A stretch of DNA of 64,000 nt from Acidobacteriota bacterium. GTDB lineage: Bacteria > Acidobacteriota > Blastocatellia > UBA7656. The DNA lies in contig JBBPIG010000003.1 in NCBI GenBank assembly GCA_038040445.1, positions 186,001 through 250,000 on the forward strand, given 5' to 3'. Positions 32,408 to 43,287 of this stretch are shown here, piece after piece. The notes beneath the pieces are model-generated. The model ran no database searches, was not told the DNA's origin, and saw nothing but the letters and a program-made list of their open reading frames with translations. A program made the translations under genes and the position numbers. Positions within the stretch are counted from its first letter, which is position 1, and each line of letters opens with the position of its first letter.

Positions 32408-33349
32408 ATGTCCAAAATACCTGCCCGTTTCATTGGCGCCGTGATCGCGGCCCTTCTTTCCGGCCACTCGAACCTCGCGTTTCAACAACCTCAGCTGGTC
32501 ACGCCCTTGGCCCGCTTGCAAGCGAACATCGAACGGATCACGCGCTCGGTGAATGCGAAGTGGGGAATCTATATCAAGTGCATCGAGACCGGCGAAGAGA
32601 TCGCAATCAACGCCGACGAAACGATGGATACGATGAGCGTCATCAAGATCCCGTTGATGGCCGAAGTCTTCCGTCAGATTGAAGCCGGGAAGTTCGCGCT
32701 AACCGACCGGATGACGCTCAAAGAAACAGAGAAGCGCCCGGGTACCGGTGTCATACGCTCGCTCGATGCCGGCGCCAGCCTGACCATCAAGGATTTGATC
32801 ACGTTGATGATCATCGTCAGTGATAACACGGCTACGGATATGCTGTTTGAAAAAGTGGGCGGCGTCGAGCCCGTGAACAAGCTTATGCAGAGCTACGGGC
32901 TGAACACAATCAAAGCCACCGGTCCGACAGACGTCTGGTTCAAGGCCATCGCCGCTGAGCCGGACAGGTGGAAGTTTCACACAGAAGGCAAGACGCCATT
33001 CGGGCTGTCGTCTTCTCGCGACATGGGCAAGCTGCTCGAGAAGATCTACAAGGGCGAGGCCGTGAGCAAGCAGGCAAGTGAGCAGATGCTTCAAATCATG
33101 CGCGGTCAAGTTTACAGCTCTCGCCTGCCAAAGTATGTGGCAGGGTTTCGCGTGCCTCACAAGACGGGAGACTTCATGCCTTACATCGGCAACGACGTCG
33201 GGATGCTGGAAAGCCCTAATCGGCACATTGTGATCTCGGTGTTCACGGCTCGTCACAACGGCATTGGACCAAATATGGAAGACGCGATCGGGCGAATCGC
33301 AGAACAGGTTGCGAACTTCTTCTCTTACCGAGAGAGCGCAACCAAATAG
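32408..33349 (+). CDS. Class A beta-lactamase-like serine hydrolase, secreted
   Basis: A 313-residue protein with a signal peptide (about residues 1-25). It has the order of motifs of serine beta-lactamases and related enzymes: SVIK (Ser77, Lys80) in TMSVIKIPLMAEVFRQIEAG, SDN (138-140) in IIVSDNTATDMLFEKVGG, and KTG (252-254) in PHKTGDFMPYIG. The omega-loop ExxLN motif that carries the deacylating glutamate of class A enzymes is not obvious; AAEPDRW near 182-188 is the nearest candidate. Beta-lactam hydrolysis is therefore possible but unproven, and a peptidoglycan-related hydrolase role is an alternative. AGGAGACGCTTTGCT precedes the ATG. Confidence 0.85.
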   Translation: MSKIPARFIGAVIAALLSGHSNLAFQQPQLVTPLARLQANIERITRSVNAKWGIYIKCIETGEEIAINADETMDTMSVIKIPLMAEVFRQIEAGKFALTDRMTLKETEKRPGTGVIRSLDAGASLTIKDLITLMIIVSDNTATDMLFEKVGGVEPVNKLMQSYGLNTIKATGPTDVWFKAIAAEPDRWKFHTEGKTPFGLSSSRDMGKLLEKIYKGEAVSKQASEQMLQIMRGQVYSSRLPKYVAGFRVPHKTGDFMPYIGNDVGMLESPNRHIVISVFTARHNGIGPNMEDAIGRIAEQVANFFSYRESATK

Positions 33350-36391: not shown

Positions 36392-38272
36392 ATGCGAGAA
36401 CTATTCTTTGCGCTCTCACACTATTTTGCCGTCGTTCTGCTTGCCTTTTGCGCGTACGTTTTCGGGCGTCGGCTGACGCTCGGTGTTCGCTACCACTCTC
36501 CTCTTGAACAGATGAGCTTTTCCATAGCGCTGGGCTTAGGAGTGCTTGCGTATGTGGTCTTCACTCTTGGCCTCTGCGGATTATTGAATCCCGCGATGCT
36601 GATAAGTCTGCTCCTGATCGGTTTATTGATCTGCCGTCGCGTCTGGTGGGGCTGGCTCAGCCGGTTGCGCGACGTTCAGAGTGGCGTCGATAGAACGAAC
36701 AAACGGCAAGCGCTTTCTGTTGCCCTTGTCCTTTTTATCCTGCTTATCCTGTTTCTGCCACTTGTGATCCTTCCGCTCTACCCGCCGACGGCCTGGGACG
36801 CTACTATGTATCACCTCGCTTACGCAAAAATTTACGTTCAAAACCATCAGCTTGTGCTTACGCCCTACTTGCGTTTTCCGGTCTCTCCTCAAAACAACGA
36901 GATGCTATTCACGCTCGCGCTGCTGGTGCAGGACGACGTCTTGGCGCAGCTAGTTGAATTCTTGATGATGGCGGTGCTAGTCGCGGCGATGATTGCTTTC
37001 GGTTGGCGTTTCTTTTCGCGGCGCGCCGGATTGTGGGCGGGGGCAATACTGCTCCAGAGCCCTCTCGTGATGTGGTTGGGAACGGTCGCCTATGTTGAAC
37101 TGGGGTTGATGCTGTTCGTGATGATGACAGTTTATGCTCTATGGAATTTTCTTGAGTCACGGCAGCAGCATTGGTTGATTCTGGCAGGAGCTTTCTGCGG
37201 GCTTGCCATGGGCACGAAATACACGGGGTTGTTTTTCCTGCTTGTTCTGACGGTGGTCGCTTTGTTTGCTGGCTGGAAGCGGCGCAATCTTCGGCAGTCA
37301 CTGCGGCCTCTTGTGCTGGCCATTGTGATATTTGCGCCCTGGGTTGTGCGCAATTTCTACTATACCAAGAACCCTTTATTTCCTTTCTTCTACGATGTGT
37401 TTGGCCGTGCCTTTGGGTACGAGCTGTGGGAGCCTGAAGATTTTCGAGAGATGCATCGAGCTATATATTCGCGGCTTGGCGTTGGAAAAGACATGAAGCC
37501 GCTGATTCTGCTTCCCTGGAATCTTCTGGCTCATTGGAGAAGCTTCGGCGCATTGATTTCTCCGCTCTGTTTGTTTGCGCCTCACCTGCTATTCATTTTC
37601 GGGATTGCCCGGAAGAGAACCAGAGGGCTACTGACTATCGGAGTCGGTTTCACGCTCTACTGGTTTTTTGCCGTCCAGGATCCCCGGCACCTCATGCCTG
37701 CCCTGCCGTTGCTCAGCCTGGCGACAGCGGCAAGCTTTGACTCTTTATTGCTGCGATGGCCGTCTTCTCAACGATGGACCAGCCATAAGCTCGCAACGAT
37801 TCTTGGAGCGCTATTGTTGTTTGCGCCGGGTTGGGGGTGGACGCTGCTGAGGCTACCCGCGCGGGGCCTGCTGCCCGTCTCGGCGCAGCAGCGAGACGCT
37901 TATTTGACCCGAGAGCTGCCCTCGTATCCCGCGTACAAATTGCTCAACTGTCTGAAGGGGCGCGATTATAGGCTCTATGCACTACGTGATGAGCGCATGG
38001 CGTACTTTGCCGATGGAGTGTTTATGGGCGACTATTTCGGGCCGGCAAAGTACACTCGCATCCTGGACCACATGGATGACAGCCAACGACTCTACGATGA
38101 ACTGAGAAGTCTGAAGGCTGACTACTTTCTAGTCAGAAACGATCTCGCAAGAGTTACCCTTCCACACGATGCGTTCTTTCAAAGCAGGTTTAAGCTCGTC
38201 TATGAGCAGGCCGGAATATTACTGTTCGAATTAACACCGGTGACTGCTAGATCGTTTCAATCAACCGAGTGA
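36392..38272 (+). CDS. Membrane glycosyltransferase, GT39/ArnT-like
   Basis: A 626-residue polytopic membrane protein with about ten or more hydrophobic helices. After the second group of helices comes an extracytoplasmic loop with [20 protein letters not shown], where the aspartate corresponds to the catalytic acid of the PMT/ArnT-type (GT-C) transferases that use polyprenyl-phosphate sugars. The C-terminal 120 residues form a soluble domain ([20 protein letters not shown]). It probably glycosylates a lipid or protein at the outer face of the inner membrane. The last codons and stop lie inside the direct repeat starting at 38251. No clear ribosome binding site was seen. Confidence 0.82.
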
Positions 38273-38348
38273 GCAGCGACGCGCGGCGGGGAATGTCGCT
38301 GATGATTATGTGCTCGTGCTCGGCGTGCGCGGCAGCCCAATCGACTCC
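38251..38348. repeat. 98-bp direct repeat, left copy (M20 peptidase 3'-end remnant)
   Basis: This 98-bp segment matches 42033-42130 with about five mismatches, in the same orientation, 3782 bp apart. On the minus strand it encodes the last residues of an M20 peptidase ([20 protein letters not shown] then RLIETI and a stop), as does the right copy within the intact gene. It bounds the inserted RiPP-like locus and overlaps the end of the glycosyltransferase gene. Confidence 0.9.
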
Positions 38349-38627
38349 TACCATCGTGACGGGCTACCGAAACGCTGCTGTGCCATTGCCAGGGATTACC
38401 ATCCCGCGCGAGTTTCAGGTAATCCAGACATTCGCTTGATTGCTTTTCGCTTGAATAAGGAAATGCTTTGCAGTAACATCGCACTCGTCTTCCTTGTCTA
38501 GTGGGGTGCTCTTTCGAGAGGTTTTGGTGCCAACTCACCTAGCGGCTTTGAAACCCCTCGGTTCATTTCGATTAGCGATCTACAACGGAGTTTGCAGCAA
38601 CTGGTTATCTCTGGGAGCTGAATCGCC
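38349..38627. other. Leader region of the RiPP-like locus, no gene seen
   Basis: Between the left direct repeat and the subtilase gene I see only short open frames without ribosome binding sites. The region presumably contains the locus promoter, but no convincing -35/-10 pair was found. Confidence 0.4.
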
Positions 38628-39515
38628 ATGCCTCCTTTGGATCTCGTCAAGCTTTCGGCTGTGATGGAATTGACCAGCGGCCGAGCTGAAACCACGGTTG
38701 CTTTGATTGATGGACCAGTGGCTATGGACCATCCTGATTTGGCGAGTGAAAACATCCGTGCGCTGCCTGGAAAACTCAACGCTGCGTGCGCTTTAGCTAA
38801 CAGCGCCGCCTGTATGCATGGAACATTCGTGGCGGGCATCCTGAGCGCGAAGAGGGGTGCCGCGGCCCCGGCAATCTGCCCAGGCTGCACCCTGCTAGTG
38901 CGACCCATTTTTGCAGAGATCCAATCAACAAACGGACCGATGCCCAGCGCGACTCCGGAAGAACTCGCAACAGCGATCATTGATTGCATCGAAGCGGGCG
39001 CTCGCGTCATCAACTTGAGCGCCGCCCTCGCGCAACCATCCTCTAAAGGTGGGCGCCGTCTAGATGAGGCTCTTGATCATGCAGCAAAGCGCGGCGTTAT
39101 CGTTGTTGCGGCAGCCGGGAATCAGGGAGCCGTCGGCAGTTCCGCGGTCACGCGCCATCCGTGGGTCATTCCGGTTGTTGCTTGTGACCTTCACGGTAGA
39201 CCGATCAGTTACTCGAACCTGGGGAGTTCCATCGGGAGACGGGGTCTGAGCGCGCCCGGTGACGGCATCATCAGCCTCGCAGCCGATGGTAAACAACGCA
39301 GTTTCGGAGGAACGAGCGCAGCGGCGCCATTTGTGACTGGCGCCATAGCATTGTTGTGGTCAGAGTTTCCAGGAGCGACCGCGGGGGAGGTGAAGATCGC
39401 CGTGACACGACCCTACGTATCGCGGCGCACCACCGTTGTCCCGCCTCTGCTGGATGCCTGGTCGGCATACCAAATCATCGCGACAACCCATTACGCTCGC
39501 AGGCGAGTGTCATGA
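38628..39515 (+). CDS. Subtilisin-like (S8) protease of the PatA/PatG type
   Basis: A 295-residue S8 protease without a signal peptide, so cytosolic. The catalytic triad is readable as Asp28 (TVALIDGPVAMDHPDLAS), His64 (MHGTFVAGILSA) and Ser230 (FGGTSAAAPFVTGA), with the oxyanion Asn165 (AAAGNQG). VALIDGPV, CPGCTLLVRPIF and GARVINLS closely resemble the protease domains of the cyanobactin maturation enzymes PatA and PatG, which cut leader peptides and macrocyclise cores. GGGAGC lies upstream. It is the first gene of the cluster, followed by a microprotein overlapping by ATGA, the PatG-C-like gene and three leader-sharing peptides. Leader removal is inferred. Confidence 0.88.
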   Translation: MPPLDLVKLSAVMELTSGRAETTVALIDGPVAMDHPDLASENIRALPGKLNAACALANSAACMHGTFVAGILSAKRGAAAPAICPGCTLLVRPIFAEIQSTNGPMPSATPEELATAIIDCIEAGARVINLSAALAQPSSKGGRRLDEALDHAAKRGVIVVAAAGNQGAVGSSAVTRHPWVIPVVACDLHGRPISYSNLGSSIGRRGLSAPGDGIISLAADGKQRSFGGTSAAAPFVTGAIALLWSEFPGATAGEVKIAVTRPYVSRRTTVVPPLLDAWSAYQIIATTHYARRRVS

Positions 39516-39727
39516 AAAAGATAGAGGAAAGGAGCGGCGGCGCAGCACCTAAGAATGAACGGCAGCCTCATCGAGTGCGCTTGCCGGGATTCATTACCGA
39601 TGGAGACATTGGCCTCGGCGATGTCATCGAGCGCGCTACTTATGCAGTTGGAATCAAGCCCTGTGGCGGCTGCGCGCGTCGTGCAGCCGCACTTAACCGC
39701 TGGATGGTTTTCTCCGGCAAGCGCTAG
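39512..39727 (+). CDS. CGGC microprotein translationally coupled to the S8 protease
   Basis: A 71-residue product whose ATG overlaps the protease stop codon in ATGA, indicating translational coupling. The N-terminal 20 residues are polar; the rest looks conserved: VRLPGFITDGDIGLGDVIER and VGIKPCGGCARRAAALNRWM. The CxxC in PCGGC may bind metal or form a disulfide. It shares the tetrapeptide LPGF with the leader of the second precursor peptide, so it may be either an accessory protein or another leader-bearing substrate. I recall similar short proteins in environmental genomes but know no function. Confidence 0.7.
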   Translation: MKKIEERSGGAAPKNERQPHRVRLPGFITDGDIGLGDVIERATYAVGIKPCGGCARRAAALNRWMVFSGKR

Positions 39728-39759
39728 AACCTGGTCTATCCCGAAAGGAGAAAAGGGTC

Positions 39760-40707
39760 ATGGAACAAACCGAATTGAATGAACAATCTACAAACCAACC
39801 GCATGGCGTGAACGGGGCACAAGCAAATGCGCTGCCGGCCAATGGTGTTACCCAAAGGGGGATCCAATCCCAAGTAAGTCCCGCGACCTGTGCTAGCTGC
39901 GGAGCCGCGGCGGATTCAAACGGCAATGGAGCGACCGCCCCTTCCTATGTCTTTGCCATTGGCAGAGTCGAGATGCGTTTTCCGACCCTCGCCGTGGAAA
40001 AGGAATTTGCGCAGGCCACCGGGCGCGCAAACACAAAGGGACTCACTGACCGCGCGGCAACCCAGGCTGTTCTTTCTGACCGCTCGAATCGCTACATTGT
40101 GCGTCAGCTGTGTTGGGTGTTTACGATCGAGGGTATGGAGACGTACATTCTTGTTCCCCGCGATCCTGCCGACTATGCCCAGTTGCTGGAAGCGGTGCGC
40201 TCTGACCCGAGCCCTCTCGACGTTGATCTTGTCGTCGGCATGCGAGGGCCAATCGCCCCGCCGGACATGTGCAATGGATTGATGGTGCCGATCGTCGCCT
40301 TCGACCAGATCTATTCCTTCGATCGCGACGCGCTCATCAAAGCGCTGCCGACGCCCAAGGGAGCAAAGGCCAAGGAGTATGCTACCGCGGCAGCAGAACT
40401 GCTTGACCGGATCATGCTTCTGGCGGATAACGCCGGGTCTACAGATGAGCATCGGGCGCTTAATTATCTGGTAGTCCGCTATCCGGCCGTCTACAACACG
40501 GTGGCCGATGCCTTTGGACGCGATTCGTCGTTGACTGCGGTTGATGTTCTGCCCTCGCCGCTGAGCGTCACACGCAAAGTTGTGGATGTGATCTTCTCAT
40601 TCACCAACCGCAACACCGATGTCGTCGAGAAGTTCTTCACGCGAGTCGACGTGACAGAGGAGTTTCCGTTCCTGGTCACCAAGATGTCGCCTTACTTTGA
40701 CCGTTGA
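39760..40707 (+). CDS. Free-standing PatG C-terminal-domain-like protein
   Basis: A 315-residue protein. Residues 1-60 are Asn/Gln/Gly-rich and probably disordered, with one CxxC (ATCASCGAA, Cys44 and Cys47). From about residue 62 it resembles the C-terminal domain of cyanobactin PatG proteases: SYVFAIGRVEMRFPTLAVEK, QLCWVFTIEGMETYILVPRD, GMRGPIAPPDMCNGLMVPIV, ALNYLVVRYPAVYNT and VDVTEEFPFLVTKMSPY. That domain is of unknown activity and is normally fused to the macrocyclase; here it is separate and follows a stand-alone protease. GAAAGGAGAA precedes the ATG. It probably assists recognition or processing of the leader peptides encoded downstream. Confidence 0.85.
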   Translation: MEQTELNEQSTNQPHGVNGAQANALPANGVTQRGIQSQVSPATCASCGAAADSNGNGATAPSYVFAIGRVEMRFPTLAVEKEFAQATGRANTKGLTDRAATQAVLSDRSNRYIVRQLCWVFTIEGMETYILVPRDPADYAQLLEAVRSDPSPLDVDLVVGMRGPIAPPDMCNGLMVPIVAFDQIYSFDRDALIKALPTPKGAKAKEYATAAAELLDRIMLLADNAGSTDEHRALNYLVVRYPAVYNTVADAFGRDSSLTAVDVLPSPLSVTRKVVDVIFSFTNRNTDVVEKFFTRVDVTEEFPFLVTKMSPYFDR

Positions 40708-40719
40708 GACTGATTCCAC

Positions 40720-40797
40720 GGAGAAGTGTTTTGTGCGCGTGATGCGACTGAGGAGTTCCCGTTCCTGGTGACCAAATTGTCGCCGTACCATAACTGA
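40720..40797 (+). repeat. Degenerate copy of the PatG-C-like gene 3' end (copy 1)
   Basis: From about 40720 to the TGA at 40795-40797 the DNA repeats the last 75-80 bases of the preceding gene. It translates as ATEEFPFLVTKLSPYHN then stop, against VTEEFPFLVTKMSPYFDR in the gene. A one-base deletion puts the upstream part out of frame. It directly precedes the first peptide gene. Confidence 0.85.
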
Positions 40798-40827
40798 TGA
40801 ACTTAACTAACCAAAAGGAGATGTGAG

Positions 40828-41148
40828 ATGAACACCAAGAATACTGTACCTGGATTTACCGCTGAAGCGTCGCTTTACAAGGCCCGCGCGGACTACCGCA
40901 TGAATGCCAGCAATCTCGTTGGGGTAGAAACGAATATCATTCCCCAACTAAGGATCGTGGCCGGCGCACCAGGCAAAAGCGGCGAACTCAAGAGTATCTG
41001 CGCACAGATAGGTGCCATAGTTAATGAGTTTTATCAAGATAGCGTTAACCCAAACAATAGTTCCAGCGAGCAACAGGAGGCGCGAGATGTAGCCCGCCAA
41101 ATGTATAATCGTAGCAGGGGCAGTTGCTCATTCGGCGTAATCCCATAG
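40828..41148 (+). CDS. PGFTAEASL-leader precursor peptide 1
   Basis: A 106-residue peptide with AAAGGAGATG upstream. The N-terminus reads NTKNTVPGFTAEASLYKARA, sharing VPGFTAEASLYK with the other two peptides of the locus. The remaining 80 residues are unrelated to theirs and mostly polar (SSSEQQEARDVARQMYN), with two cysteines (Cys58 and one in GSCSFGVIP near the end). The pattern of a conserved leader with a variable C-terminus, next to a PatA/PatG-like protease, is that of a RiPP precursor. The core and any modification are unknown. Confidence 0.75.
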   Translation: MNTKNTVPGFTAEASLYKARADYRMNASNLVGVETNIIPQLRIVAGAPGKSGELKSICAQIGAIVNEFYQDSVNPNNSSSEQQEARDVARQMYNRSRGSCSFGVIP

Positions 41149-41226
41149 AGGAATTCCAACCCACGAAGGCGGAACATGTATGTCTTACCACGTGGGAAGG
41201 AAACCAAGCCGGAGCAGTCTTATTGG

Positions 41227-41288
41227 GAAGTTCTCTGTGCGCGCCGATGTGACTCAGGGCTCGGTTCCTGATGACCAATTGTCGCCTG
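41227..41288 (+). repeat. Degenerate copy of the PatG-C-like gene 3' end (copy 2)
   Basis: GAAGTTCTCTGTGCGCGCCG, GATGTGACTCAGGG and GACCAATTGTCGCCT align in order with the last 60-65 bases of the PatG-C-like gene, with more mismatches and small deletions than the copy at 40720. It precedes the second peptide gene by about 40 bp. Confidence 0.7.
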
Positions 41289-41327
41289 AGGACAGACAAA
41301 CTCAAACAATGGAAGGAGAATAGTAAT

Positions 41328-41612
41328 ATGAATTTACCTGGATTTACTGCAGAAGCTTCGCTCAACAAGACAAGCAAGCACTACGGTATTGCCGCAACTC
41401 TCGAAGCTATGGAGTTAAGCACCACACTGTACCCGCAAGCGAGGCGAGCGACTGGCCCGTTTGGACCTTTCGGATTTCCCGGTCAAGATTGTGCGGGGGC
41501 ATGTTGGCACGTTTGCATGAGCTCGGGGTTAGGCAAGGGTTCGTTTTTTGACCACTGCATGAATAGCTGCCAGAGCTCATGTAGCGGATCTACACTTATC
41601 GCGCGGCTATGA
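41328..41612 (+). CDS. PGFTAEASL-leader precursor peptide 2 (six-cysteine core)
   Basis: A 94-residue peptide; the ATG at 41328 follows GGAAGGAGAA and is preferred over a start 57 bases earlier. The leader is MNLPGFTAEASLNKTSKHYG. After a Gly/Pro/Phe-rich stretch (TGPFGPFGFPG) the core has six cysteines in two identical triplets, CAGACWHVC and CMNSCQSSC, separated by 13 residues (CX3CX3C-X13-CX3CX3C). This would suit a disulfide-linked helical hairpin or thioether-type crosslinking. No modifying enzyme for cysteines is encoded in the visible cluster. Confidence 0.8.
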   Translation: MNLPGFTAEASLNKTSKHYGIAATLEAMELSTTLYPQARRATGPFGPFGFPGQDCAGACWHVCMSSGLGKGSFFDHCMNSCQSSCSGSTLIARL

Positions 41613-41688
41613 TCTGAGGCAACGGTGCCCAGTTGTGGCGGCAGGTATCTCAGGCGACCGTTGGATTATGGGACGGAGGGTTTTGAAA

Positions 41689-41900
41689 ATGAACATGCCA
41701 GGATTTACTGCGGAAGCGTCGCTCTACAAACGAGTAGTCACTACAATATGACAGAGGATTCGAGCAATCTGCGAAGCGGCGAAGGACTTATTCCGCAGGC
41801 ACCGATAATCCTCCGTAACTGTTTCTGTACACCTAACAAAAGATTTTGCTGCTGCCGCGACGCGAGCGGTTGGGTATGCGGCGCCAGTACATCCACTTAA
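41689..41900 (+). pseudogene. PGFTAEASL-leader precursor peptide 3, frameshifted
   Basis: The ATG at 41689 has GGAGGG upstream and starts MNMPGFTAEASLYK, then the frame stops at 41751. The +1 frame continues plausibly as TSSHYNMTEDSSNLRSGEGL and ends in a Cys-rich core (NCFCTPNKRFCCCRDASGWV) at the TAA at 41898-41900. TSSHYN matches TSKHYG of peptide 2 right after the leader, so one A is missing from the AAA run near 41728. It could be a real loss, a slippage site or a sequencing error. Confidence 0.75.
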
Positions 41901-42028: not shown

Positions 42029-43192
42029 TCAAATCGTTTCAATCAACCGAGTGAGCAGCGATGCGCGGCGGGGAATGTCGCTGATGATTATGTGCTCGTG
42101 CTCGGCGTGCGCGCCTGCCCCATCGACTCCGAGCCCATCCAGCACCGGCACGCCCAACGCTGCGATAAAGTTTCCGTCCGATCCGCCGCCGACCGAGCCC
42201 TCTTTCAGATCGTAGCCAATCTCGGAAGCCAACCGCCGGGCGTGTTCGAACAGCTCCGCTGTCTCAGGTGTCCGAACAAGCGGCGGACGATTTATCCCGC
42301 CGCGCACTTCGATGCGAGCGCCGTCGATCACCGGCTGGAGACGGGACATCGCTTCGGTTATGCGTTCACCCTCTGTGACGGTTTGAAATCGCATATCGAT
42401 GGAAGCGTGAGCCTCGGCTGCGATCACGTTTGAAAGGACGCCGCCGCGCGCCACGCCTACGTTGAGCGTCGTGCCCCGCTCGTAATCGTTCAGCTTGTTG
42501 ATAGCGAGGATTTGATGCGCGAGTTCTGTTATCGCGCTGATACCTGCCCGAGGATCGTTGCCCGCGTGAGCCGGCCTTCCGCGAATAATCAGTTCGAACT
42601 CGCCGACCCCTTTGCGTCCGGTCTTGATCGTCCCGCCCGGTATGGGCGGCTCCAGCACAAGCGCGGCGTGTGTGCGGCGCGCTTCTTCTTCAATCACGTC
42701 GCGCGAAAAATGACTACCGGTTTCTTCATCGCAAGTCATCAGCATAGTCACGCATCGTCTGGTGGCAATGCTCAACTCTTTGATTGCCCGCATCGCGAAA
42801 ACAGCAAGCATAACTCCGGATTTCATATCGAATATGCCCGGCCCGAATGCGCGGTCTTCTTCAACTCTGAAAGGCCGCGCGGCGAGCGTTCCGATGGGCC
42901 ACACGGTATCGAGATGTCCGACGATCAGAAGCTGCTTCTCGTTTGGCGATGCGTCAGGCGCGCAATCGAACCGCGCGCGGAGCGTGGAACCGTAGGCGGG
43001 ATCATTGAGCAACTCGACTGCCGCTCCCTTCGAAGCCAGACTTTCGCCGAGGTTCTCCGCTATCCGTCGCGTAGCGCTGGCTTCGCGAGACATTGATTCT
43101 TGTTCTACGAGCCAGCGGCTGAACTCGAGCATCTCCGAGCGATGGGCTTCGAAGTAAGACAGAACCGCTGGGCCGGGCCTGTTCGCTTTCAT
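42029..43192 (-). CDS. M20 family metallopeptidase (carboxypeptidase G2-like)
   Basis: A 387-residue zinc peptidase from the ATG at 43192; a TTG 57 bases earlier is a possible alternative and neither has a strong ribosome binding site. Metal and catalytic residues appear in VGHLDTVWPIGT (His, Asp), FGPGIFDMKSG (bridging Asp), TCDEETGSHF (Glu-Glu) and the final histidine in GAGAHAEHEH. A dimerisation domain with KGVGEFELIIRGRPAHAGND lies in the middle. It has no signal peptide. The 3' 98 bp are duplicated at 38251, so the gene marks the right border of the RiPP-like insertion. Confidence 0.9.
   Translation of the reverse strand: MKANRPGPAVLSYFEAHRSEMLEFSRWLVEQESMSREASATRRIAENLGESLASKGAAVELLNDPAYGSTLRARFDCAPDASPNEKQLLIVGHLDTVWPIGTLAARPFRVEEDRAFGPGIFDMKSGVMLAVFAMRAIKELSIATRRCVTMLMTCDEETGSHFSRDVIEEEARRTHAALVLEPPIPGGTIKTGRKGVGEFELIIRGRPAHAGNDPRAGISAITELAHQILAINKLNDYERGTTLNVGVARGGVLSNVIAAEAHASIDMRFQTVTEGERITEAMSRLQPVIDGARIEVRGGINRPPLVRTPETAELFEHARRLASEIGYDLKEGSVGGGSDGNFIAALGVPVLDGLGVDGAGAHAEHEHIIISDIPRRASLLTRLIETI
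42033..42130. repeat. 98-bp direct repeat, right copy (inside M20 3' end)
   Basis: This is the right-hand partner of the segment at 38251-38348, in the same orientation. It codes for the C-terminal residues of the intact M20 peptidase, so this copy is the likely source and the left copy the derived remnant. Confidence 0.9.
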
Positions 43193-43287
43193 CACACCAA
43201 GTTTTATCAGAGGGAAGCCGAGCACGCCAGCCGGCGAACCTCTCTCCAAGGGGTTGGTTAGCGGTTCACCGGCGTGACCCGTTTGTT

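Follow-up and report, generated by a model that had tools for sequence, protein, structure and literature searches.

What does the C-terminal domain of unknown function (DUF) of the cyanobactin proteases PatA and PatG do when it is encoded on its own, next to a subtilase and a row of short peptides, in the genome of an acidobacterium? The question is raised by a locus at positions 38628–41900 of a 64,000-nucleotide stretch (the window) of contig JBBPIG010000003.1, assembly GCA_038040445.1, Acidobacteriota bacterium. This locus codes, on a single strand, for a cytosolic subtilase of family S8, a CGGC microprotein, a free PatG-type DUF protein and three short peptides with a common leader. A first-pass annotation made from the sequence alone described it as a peptide system in which the PatG domains are split, and was largely right; an open reading frame check confirmed its frames and gene order. 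We propose that it is a compact, horizontally spread maturation cassette resembling those of ribosomally synthesized and post-translationally modified peptides (RiPPs), in which precursors would be recognized by their leader, the leader removed by a PatA-type protease and Cys-rich peptides released. We estimate the probability of this reading at about 0.7.

A recurrent gene set with a common leader

The gene set is not special to one bacterium. It was found in 16 further loci: in Acidobacteriota, Pseudomonadota, a deltaproteobacterium, Brocadia and Cyanobacteria, on rhizobial and Streptomyces plasmids, and in an archaeal genome bin (Methanoperedens). The genes of all 17 loci lie on one strand in a constant order: S8 protease, CGGC microprotein (where present), free PatG-like protein and one to eight leader peptides. 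The S8 frame is broken in two of these loci (L032 and L033). Scanning the genomes of 84,980 species for DNA encoding PGFTAEASLY, i.e., for the leader only, detected it in just ten genomes: three of Nitrosospira/Nitrosovibrio, Brocadia, Calothrix, and metagenome-assembled genomes (MAGs) of a gammaproteobacterium, a deltaproteobacterium, a Pyrinomonadaceae member, a cyanobacterium and Methanoperedens. All ten carry PatG_C. Exact copies of the leader motif (21 in 13 genomes) lie inside a PatG-like locus in 19 cases, and the remaining two belong to precursors not linked to it, in Nitrosospira genomes where the locus is present as well. The idea of a widespread leader family unrelated to PatG was rejected on these grounds, and leader peptides living mainly without the protease and the PatG-C-like gene, the pattern that the first-pass annotation had named as damaging to its reading, did not appear. 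These orphan leader peptides, in Nitrosospira Nsp14 (L106:6047-6481) and Nsp11 (L107:5220-5495), lie far from the maturation genes, and one of them has a long Gly run.

The reverse search, in which loci were gathered by the PatG-like sequence alone, yielded six loci. In five, leader peptides follow immediately downstream, and L078, the sixth, has a Cys-rich peptide bearing a degenerate PGF motif. It added, with leader peptides, an acidobacterium (L041) from the phylum of the window, a cyanobacterium (L072) and plasmids of Mesorhizobium, Sinorhizobium mexicanum and Streptomyces NBC_01568. The remaining addition, a Streptomyces xanthophaeus plasmid, codes for the CGGC and PatG-like proteins and for a Cys-rich peptide with a degenerate leader, with no adjoining S8 gene. 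The gene set is rare. Among sampled genomes, PatG_C occurs in 3 of 297 from the window's phylum, 2 of 398 from that of Nitrosospira and 27 of 292 Cyanobacteria, where the matches are mostly fused PatA/PatG proteins. MAG assignments, that of Methanoperedens above all, could be binning errors.

In the window, PGFTAEA occurs three times in six frames versus none in 100 shuffles, and in the whole source genome the leader pattern is found only in the three peptides and PatG_C only once. A leader hidden Markov model (HMM) collected 52 peptides, 50 of which have at least 40 residues counted from the Pro. Their leader starts with PGFTAEASLY (positions 1–10), has Tyr16 in 42 of the 50 and reaches a PQ/PA-like motif at about position 33; the Cys content rises from 0.6% over the first 28 residues to 10.6% over the remainder. 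Encoded precursors with a conserved leader and a variable core thus stand beside a maturation enzyme, as in RiPP systems. The C-terminal part of peptide 2 is Cys-rich (CAGACWHVC...HCMNSCQSSC). Several C-terminal parts are homologous across distant hosts (51% between Methanoperedens and Pyrinomonadaceae, 37% between Pyrinomonadaceae and Nitrosospira); those of Brocadia and a cyanobacterium, also homologous, contain repeats of CC-rich units which, judged by eye, resemble granulins. Long precursors with such units, granulin-like by eye and without Pfam match, are found at L031:11176-11910, L033:2276-2971 and L034:1347-1754. No Pfam or NCBIfam model matched any peptide tested, and the plasmid gene tables consulted, by construction not complete, leave most of the peptide genes unannotated.

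The leader is indeed common to the three peptides of the window, as first annotated, but only peptides 1 and 2 are intact (Table 1). The body of peptide 3 (TSSHYNMTED...CCCRDASGW...) resumes in a different frame. It has an intact homologue in a Pyrinomonadaceae genome (L034:527-739, minus strand; also L015), than which the window is one base shorter at the frameshift point, beside an A run, and a sequencing error is a possible cause of the damage.

Table 1. Features of the locus and of its flanks, in window positions
Feature	Positions	Strand	Remarks
Left copy of 98-nt direct repeat D1	38251-38348		in broken M20 peptidase 3' fragment; 96%
Cytosolic subtilase (S8), PatA-type, 295 aa	38628-39515	+	catalytic Asp28/His64/Asn165/Ser230; Pfam PF00082 2e-27
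CGGC microprotein, 71 aa	39512-39727	+	ATGA overlap with S8 stop
Free-standing PatG_D + PatG_C (cyanobactin DUF) protein, 315 aa	39760-40707	+	PF18047 1.9e-27, PF18065 3.2e-32
60-nt remnant of PatG-like gene 3' end (DATEEFPFLVTKLSPYHN)	40741-40800	+	directly before peptide 1; direct repeat D3, 78%
Precursor peptide 1, MNTKNTVPGFTAEASLYKARADYR...NIIPQ..., 106 aa	40828-41148	+	leader HMM 6.7e-11
Precursor peptide 2, MNLPGFTAEASLNKTSKHY...TLYPQ..., 94 aa	41328-41612	+	leader HMM 9.2e-12
Precursor peptide 3, frameshifted after MNMPGFTAEASLYK	41689-41900	+	stop at 41751 after 20 aa; rest in another frame, to 41900
Right copy of 98-nt direct repeat	42033-42130		inside intact M20 peptidase gene 42029-43249 (-), Peptidase_M20 1.1e-31

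A PatA-type protease and a free PatG-type protein

The solved structures closest to the S8 protein are those of the PatA protease (4h6v/3zxx/3zxy, E about 3e-29). The four catalytic residues listed in Table 1, already recognized in the first pass, hold positions that are kept in 14 of 14 free-standing S8 proteins. An HMM of this family scores PatA-type proteases at 84–129 bits versus 50–58 for the PatG-type. The spacing between Asp and His is 34–36 residues in the free-standing proteins and 34 in the PatA-type. For the PatG-type it amounts to about 80, counted to the probable catalytic His in SSHATH, which precedes by some 14 residues an HGT motif at a distance of 96 from the Asp. Accordingly, of the resemblance to PatA/PatG first noted, the cyanobactin-type character stood, with PatA as the relative, and a kinship with PatG found no support in structure, HMM or spacing. 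The protein has the marks of an N-terminal PatA-type protease, yet the free-standing S8 proteins (that of the window and 13 others) form one clade with full support in the Shimodaira–Hasegawa-like approximate likelihood ratio test (SH-aLRT), far from all fused PatA/PatG in the tree, and the match to TIGR03895 (99 bits) lies below the cut-off of 421. The locus has a single S8 protein, without the enlarged Asp–His segment of a macrocyclase, and inspection of the listed precursors revealed no conserved C-terminal follower. Because of these three traits (PatA likeness, no enlarged segment, no follower seen), the comparisons support a putative hydrolytic removal of the leader and not macrocyclisation.

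The free protein encoded at 39760 carries the PatG C-terminal domain pair, as first proposed: PatG_D and PatG_C both exceed the Pfam cut-off, so that the profile similarity on which the first-pass annotation had staked its reading was found, and the PatG-DUF structure 4uvq matches at 8e-5. The structure of this DUF of PatA/PatG has been solved; the fold is a new one, to which no activity is assigned (PMC4259220). The DUF is unfused in 17 of 17 loci. The PatG-like protein, whose N-terminus is of low complexity with a CxxCG motif, is 59–81% identical to its homologues of other phyla. Free and fused DUFs have about 20 positions in common, and the invariants specific to the free form include C118, C171, D182, Q183 and H231, which persist even in the divergent S. 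xanthophaeus protein, whereas the fused DUFs differ there. By these sequence characters, the free DUF proteins are a subfamily of their own. An AlphaFold model of the PatG-like protein was too poor to use (mean predicted local distance difference test, pLDDT, 52). Other arrangements of the domain were seen elsewhere: a fused subtilase–PatG_C protein of 643 aa from the window's class, without leader peptides (L040:5769-7700), i.e., a cyanobactin-type PatA outside cyanobacteria; a fused S8–PatG_C protein of 661 aa in the phylum of Nitrosospira (L074:8126-10111); two to three short PatG-DUF-like reading frames in tandem, without S8 or leader, on a plasmid of Photobacterium sp. GJ3 (L079:6584-8657); and another divergent free DUF (L073:8230-9207).

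The CGGC microprotein has an invariant pattern in the alignment (LPxFI...GLG...PCxGC..R...LNRW.VF) and no match among Pfam, NCBIfam or PADLOC families. Of 119 genomes from the window's phylum, just the two carriers of the gene set encode it, and it is thus a dedicated component in the sampled phylum. Its (R)LPGF(I) is reminiscent of the leader MPGFT; that both represent a shared docking motif is a guess. The AlphaFold model (pLDDT 61.5), with two helices at 35–46 and 52–68, was too poor for fold searching.

Proposed maturation route and its alternatives

According to our model, precursors would be recognized in the cytosol through the leader, (M)PGFTAEASLY...Y...PQ, behind which the C-terminal parts are variable and in most cases rich in Cys. 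The free PatG-type DUF protein, alone or together with the CGGC microprotein, may serve as a scaffold or recognition factor that holds the precursor and/or the protease, and the PatA-type subtilase, which we infer to act on the leader peptides, would hydrolyse the leader off and free the Cys-rich peptides. Two candidate cleavage sites can be envisaged, one after TAEAS, resembling the G(L/V)E(A/P)S after which PatA cleaves (PMC10885120), and the other near the PQ/PA motif, about 33 residues past the Pro of PGF, at the start of the Cys-rich part. We lean towards the PQ site, given that the conserved Tyr16 is situated between them. Export might be ensured by a housekeeping or unlinked transporter, after which the released peptides would probably form disulfides or bind metal.

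Several observations weigh against this model. The free DUF of Prochloron PatG did not bind its precursor in nuclear magnetic resonance experiments (PMC4259220), which counts against a simple leader-binding role. The CGGC microprotein is missing in 5 of the 17 loci (L028, L033, L036, L037 and L072), with little or no gap between the S8 and PatG-like genes, and therefore cannot be essential. The loci have no recurring exporter, disulfide enzyme or tailoring enzyme. Peptide 1, with two Cys only, is the least Cys-rich of the window's three, and some precursors reach about 230–240 aa, above the usual RiPP size. The invariance of P and F in the leader is partly built in by the motif-based extraction of the peptides; the contrast in Cys content is independent of it. 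Finally, the status of natural product is deduced from the anatomy of the locus.

The free PatG-like protein might instead be a modifying enzyme, acting for example on Cys, with the subtilase only removing the leader afterwards. Its strict free-form invariants, a cross-phylum identity (59–62%) that is high for a mere scaffold and the Cys-rich cores would fit such an activity, but its model is unusable and the PatG DUF offers no known catalytic fold, and we hold this to be unlikely, if worth serious attention. There may also be no natural product at all, the peptides being cytosolic Cys- or metal-binding or stress proteins under regulated proteolysis, or else effectors of a toxin or defence module activated by the subtilase. 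This would suit the scattered, plasmid-borne distribution, the lack of an exporter and a match to a PADLOC subtilase model (51 bits). However, PADLOC matches concern the subtilase domain only and this one is generic to subtilases, no defence genes recur in the neighbourhoods by inspection, and a conserved leader with hypervariable C-termini in arrays of one to eight paralogues is the usual signature of peptide products, so that we find such a role improbable.

Cyanobactin-like macrocyclisation, hinted at in the first-pass annotation, would have the subtilase, in the manner of PatG, both cut the core and join it head to tail, the DUF being provided in trans. The S8 and DUF sequences are of cyanobactin type, but the short Asp–His spacing, the HMM scores favouring the PatA-type and the absence of a conserved follower among the listed precursors all oppose it, as do cores of up to about 200 residues, implausible as macrocycles; we consider it very improbable. 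The frameshift in peptide 3 and the PatG-like remnants between genes could evoke a chance grouping or decaying genes in the source genome, an explanation that deserves hardly any credence: it is ruled out for the system as a whole because the gene set recurs in 16 other loci and its S8, CGGC and PatG-like frames are intact, only peptide 3 looking damaged.

Probable insertion and spread, and relation to known systems

The flanks of the cassette keep what look like traces of its arrival. On its left lies part of an M20 peptidase gene, a broken piece of the 3' end (residues 353–406, 54 aa, at 72% on window 38250-38408), and on its right an intact M20 gene, with the 98-nt repeat in both, a footprint as expected from insertion by recombination. 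In a comparison aimed at an empty insertion site, the M20 gene was also found in genomes of the same family; the glycosyltransferase neighbour was not visible in those short loci. In at least four loci (window 40741-40800, L034:2692-2823, L072:6092-6436 and L041:8315-8377), pieces of the PatG-like 3' end stand in front of leader-peptide genes, which suggests that the peptide array grows by duplication of the junction between PatG-like 3' end and peptide gene. Hosts are intermingled in the S8 and PatG-like trees: Mesorhizobium joins the Nitrosospira group, and the partner of Brocadia is Sinorhizobium in the S8 tree and the deltaproteobacterium in the PatG-like tree. Horizontal transfer of the cassette is likely for this reason, judging from the trees; four loci are plasmid-borne. 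A phage origin was rejected, with no match in viral_contigs (exact short patterns only) or in the phages collection.

No heterocyclase, radical SAM enzyme or transporter recurs across the loci. In the window, no patB/patC-like gene, heterocyclase or prenyltransferase was found among the scanned neighbours; unlinked copies elsewhere in the genome were not searched. Downstream of the Brocadia peptide array (L031:14334-16265) there is a radical SAM/SPASM-like protein whose best match, to NirJ2, stays under the cut-off; it is probably unrelated because it was not seen at other loci. At window 32408-33349, a class A beta-lactamase-like protein scored 126.5 bits, under the NCBIfam cut-off of 200.

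The system shares with cyanobactin pathways (patellamide PatA/PatG) a PatA-type subtilase, the PatG_D/PatG_C pair and short precursors with a conserved leader, in which TAEAS resembles the PatA site. By contrast, its DUF is free instead of fused to the protease C-terminus, it has one PatA-type protease and no macrocyclase, with no heterocyclase or prenyltransferase seen among the scanned neighbours, and its precursors bear a conserved N-terminal leader only, whereas recognition sequences flank a short core on both sides in cyanobactins. The CGGC microprotein, the different leader, the mostly Cys-rich cores and the occurrence far outside cyanobacteria further set it apart. Since fused DUF, macrocyclase and follower were looked for and not found, the system is RiPP-like by its anatomy and built from cyanobactin parts, but is not a cyanobactin. 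RiPP systems with an S8 leader protease (NisP/ElxP, AmyP of class III) also place a subtilase beside leader-bearing precursors; unlike the present loci, they come with a modifying enzyme of their own and, as a rule, a transporter, and they lack a PatG DUF. The S8 protein matches mycosin, the type VII secretion protease, and QhpE below their cut-offs (131/279 and 47.5/165 bits, respectively), but it has neither a signal nor a transmembrane part, and neither ESX nor Qhp genes were noticed nearby. No paper in the searched literature contains the leader motif GFTAEASL and no described equivalent turned up; the gene set has the look of a peptide-product system not described before.

With a protease, peptides and little else, it provides a minimal setting in which to learn the function of a PatA/PatG DUF of solved structure, and its roughly 50 precursors with recurring core families are an untapped, unannotated set of peptides. 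More tentatively, and at somewhat less than even odds, it may represent a new class of peptide products, spread horizontally across bacteria and archaea, in which the free PatG-type DUF would be the core enzyme or chaperone, working with a PatA-type protease and the CGGC microprotein on Cys-rich, partly granulin-like precursors, and the fused cyanobactin DUFs would be its relatives. If so, the free-DUF system would reveal the hidden function of the DUFs fused to PatA and PatG.

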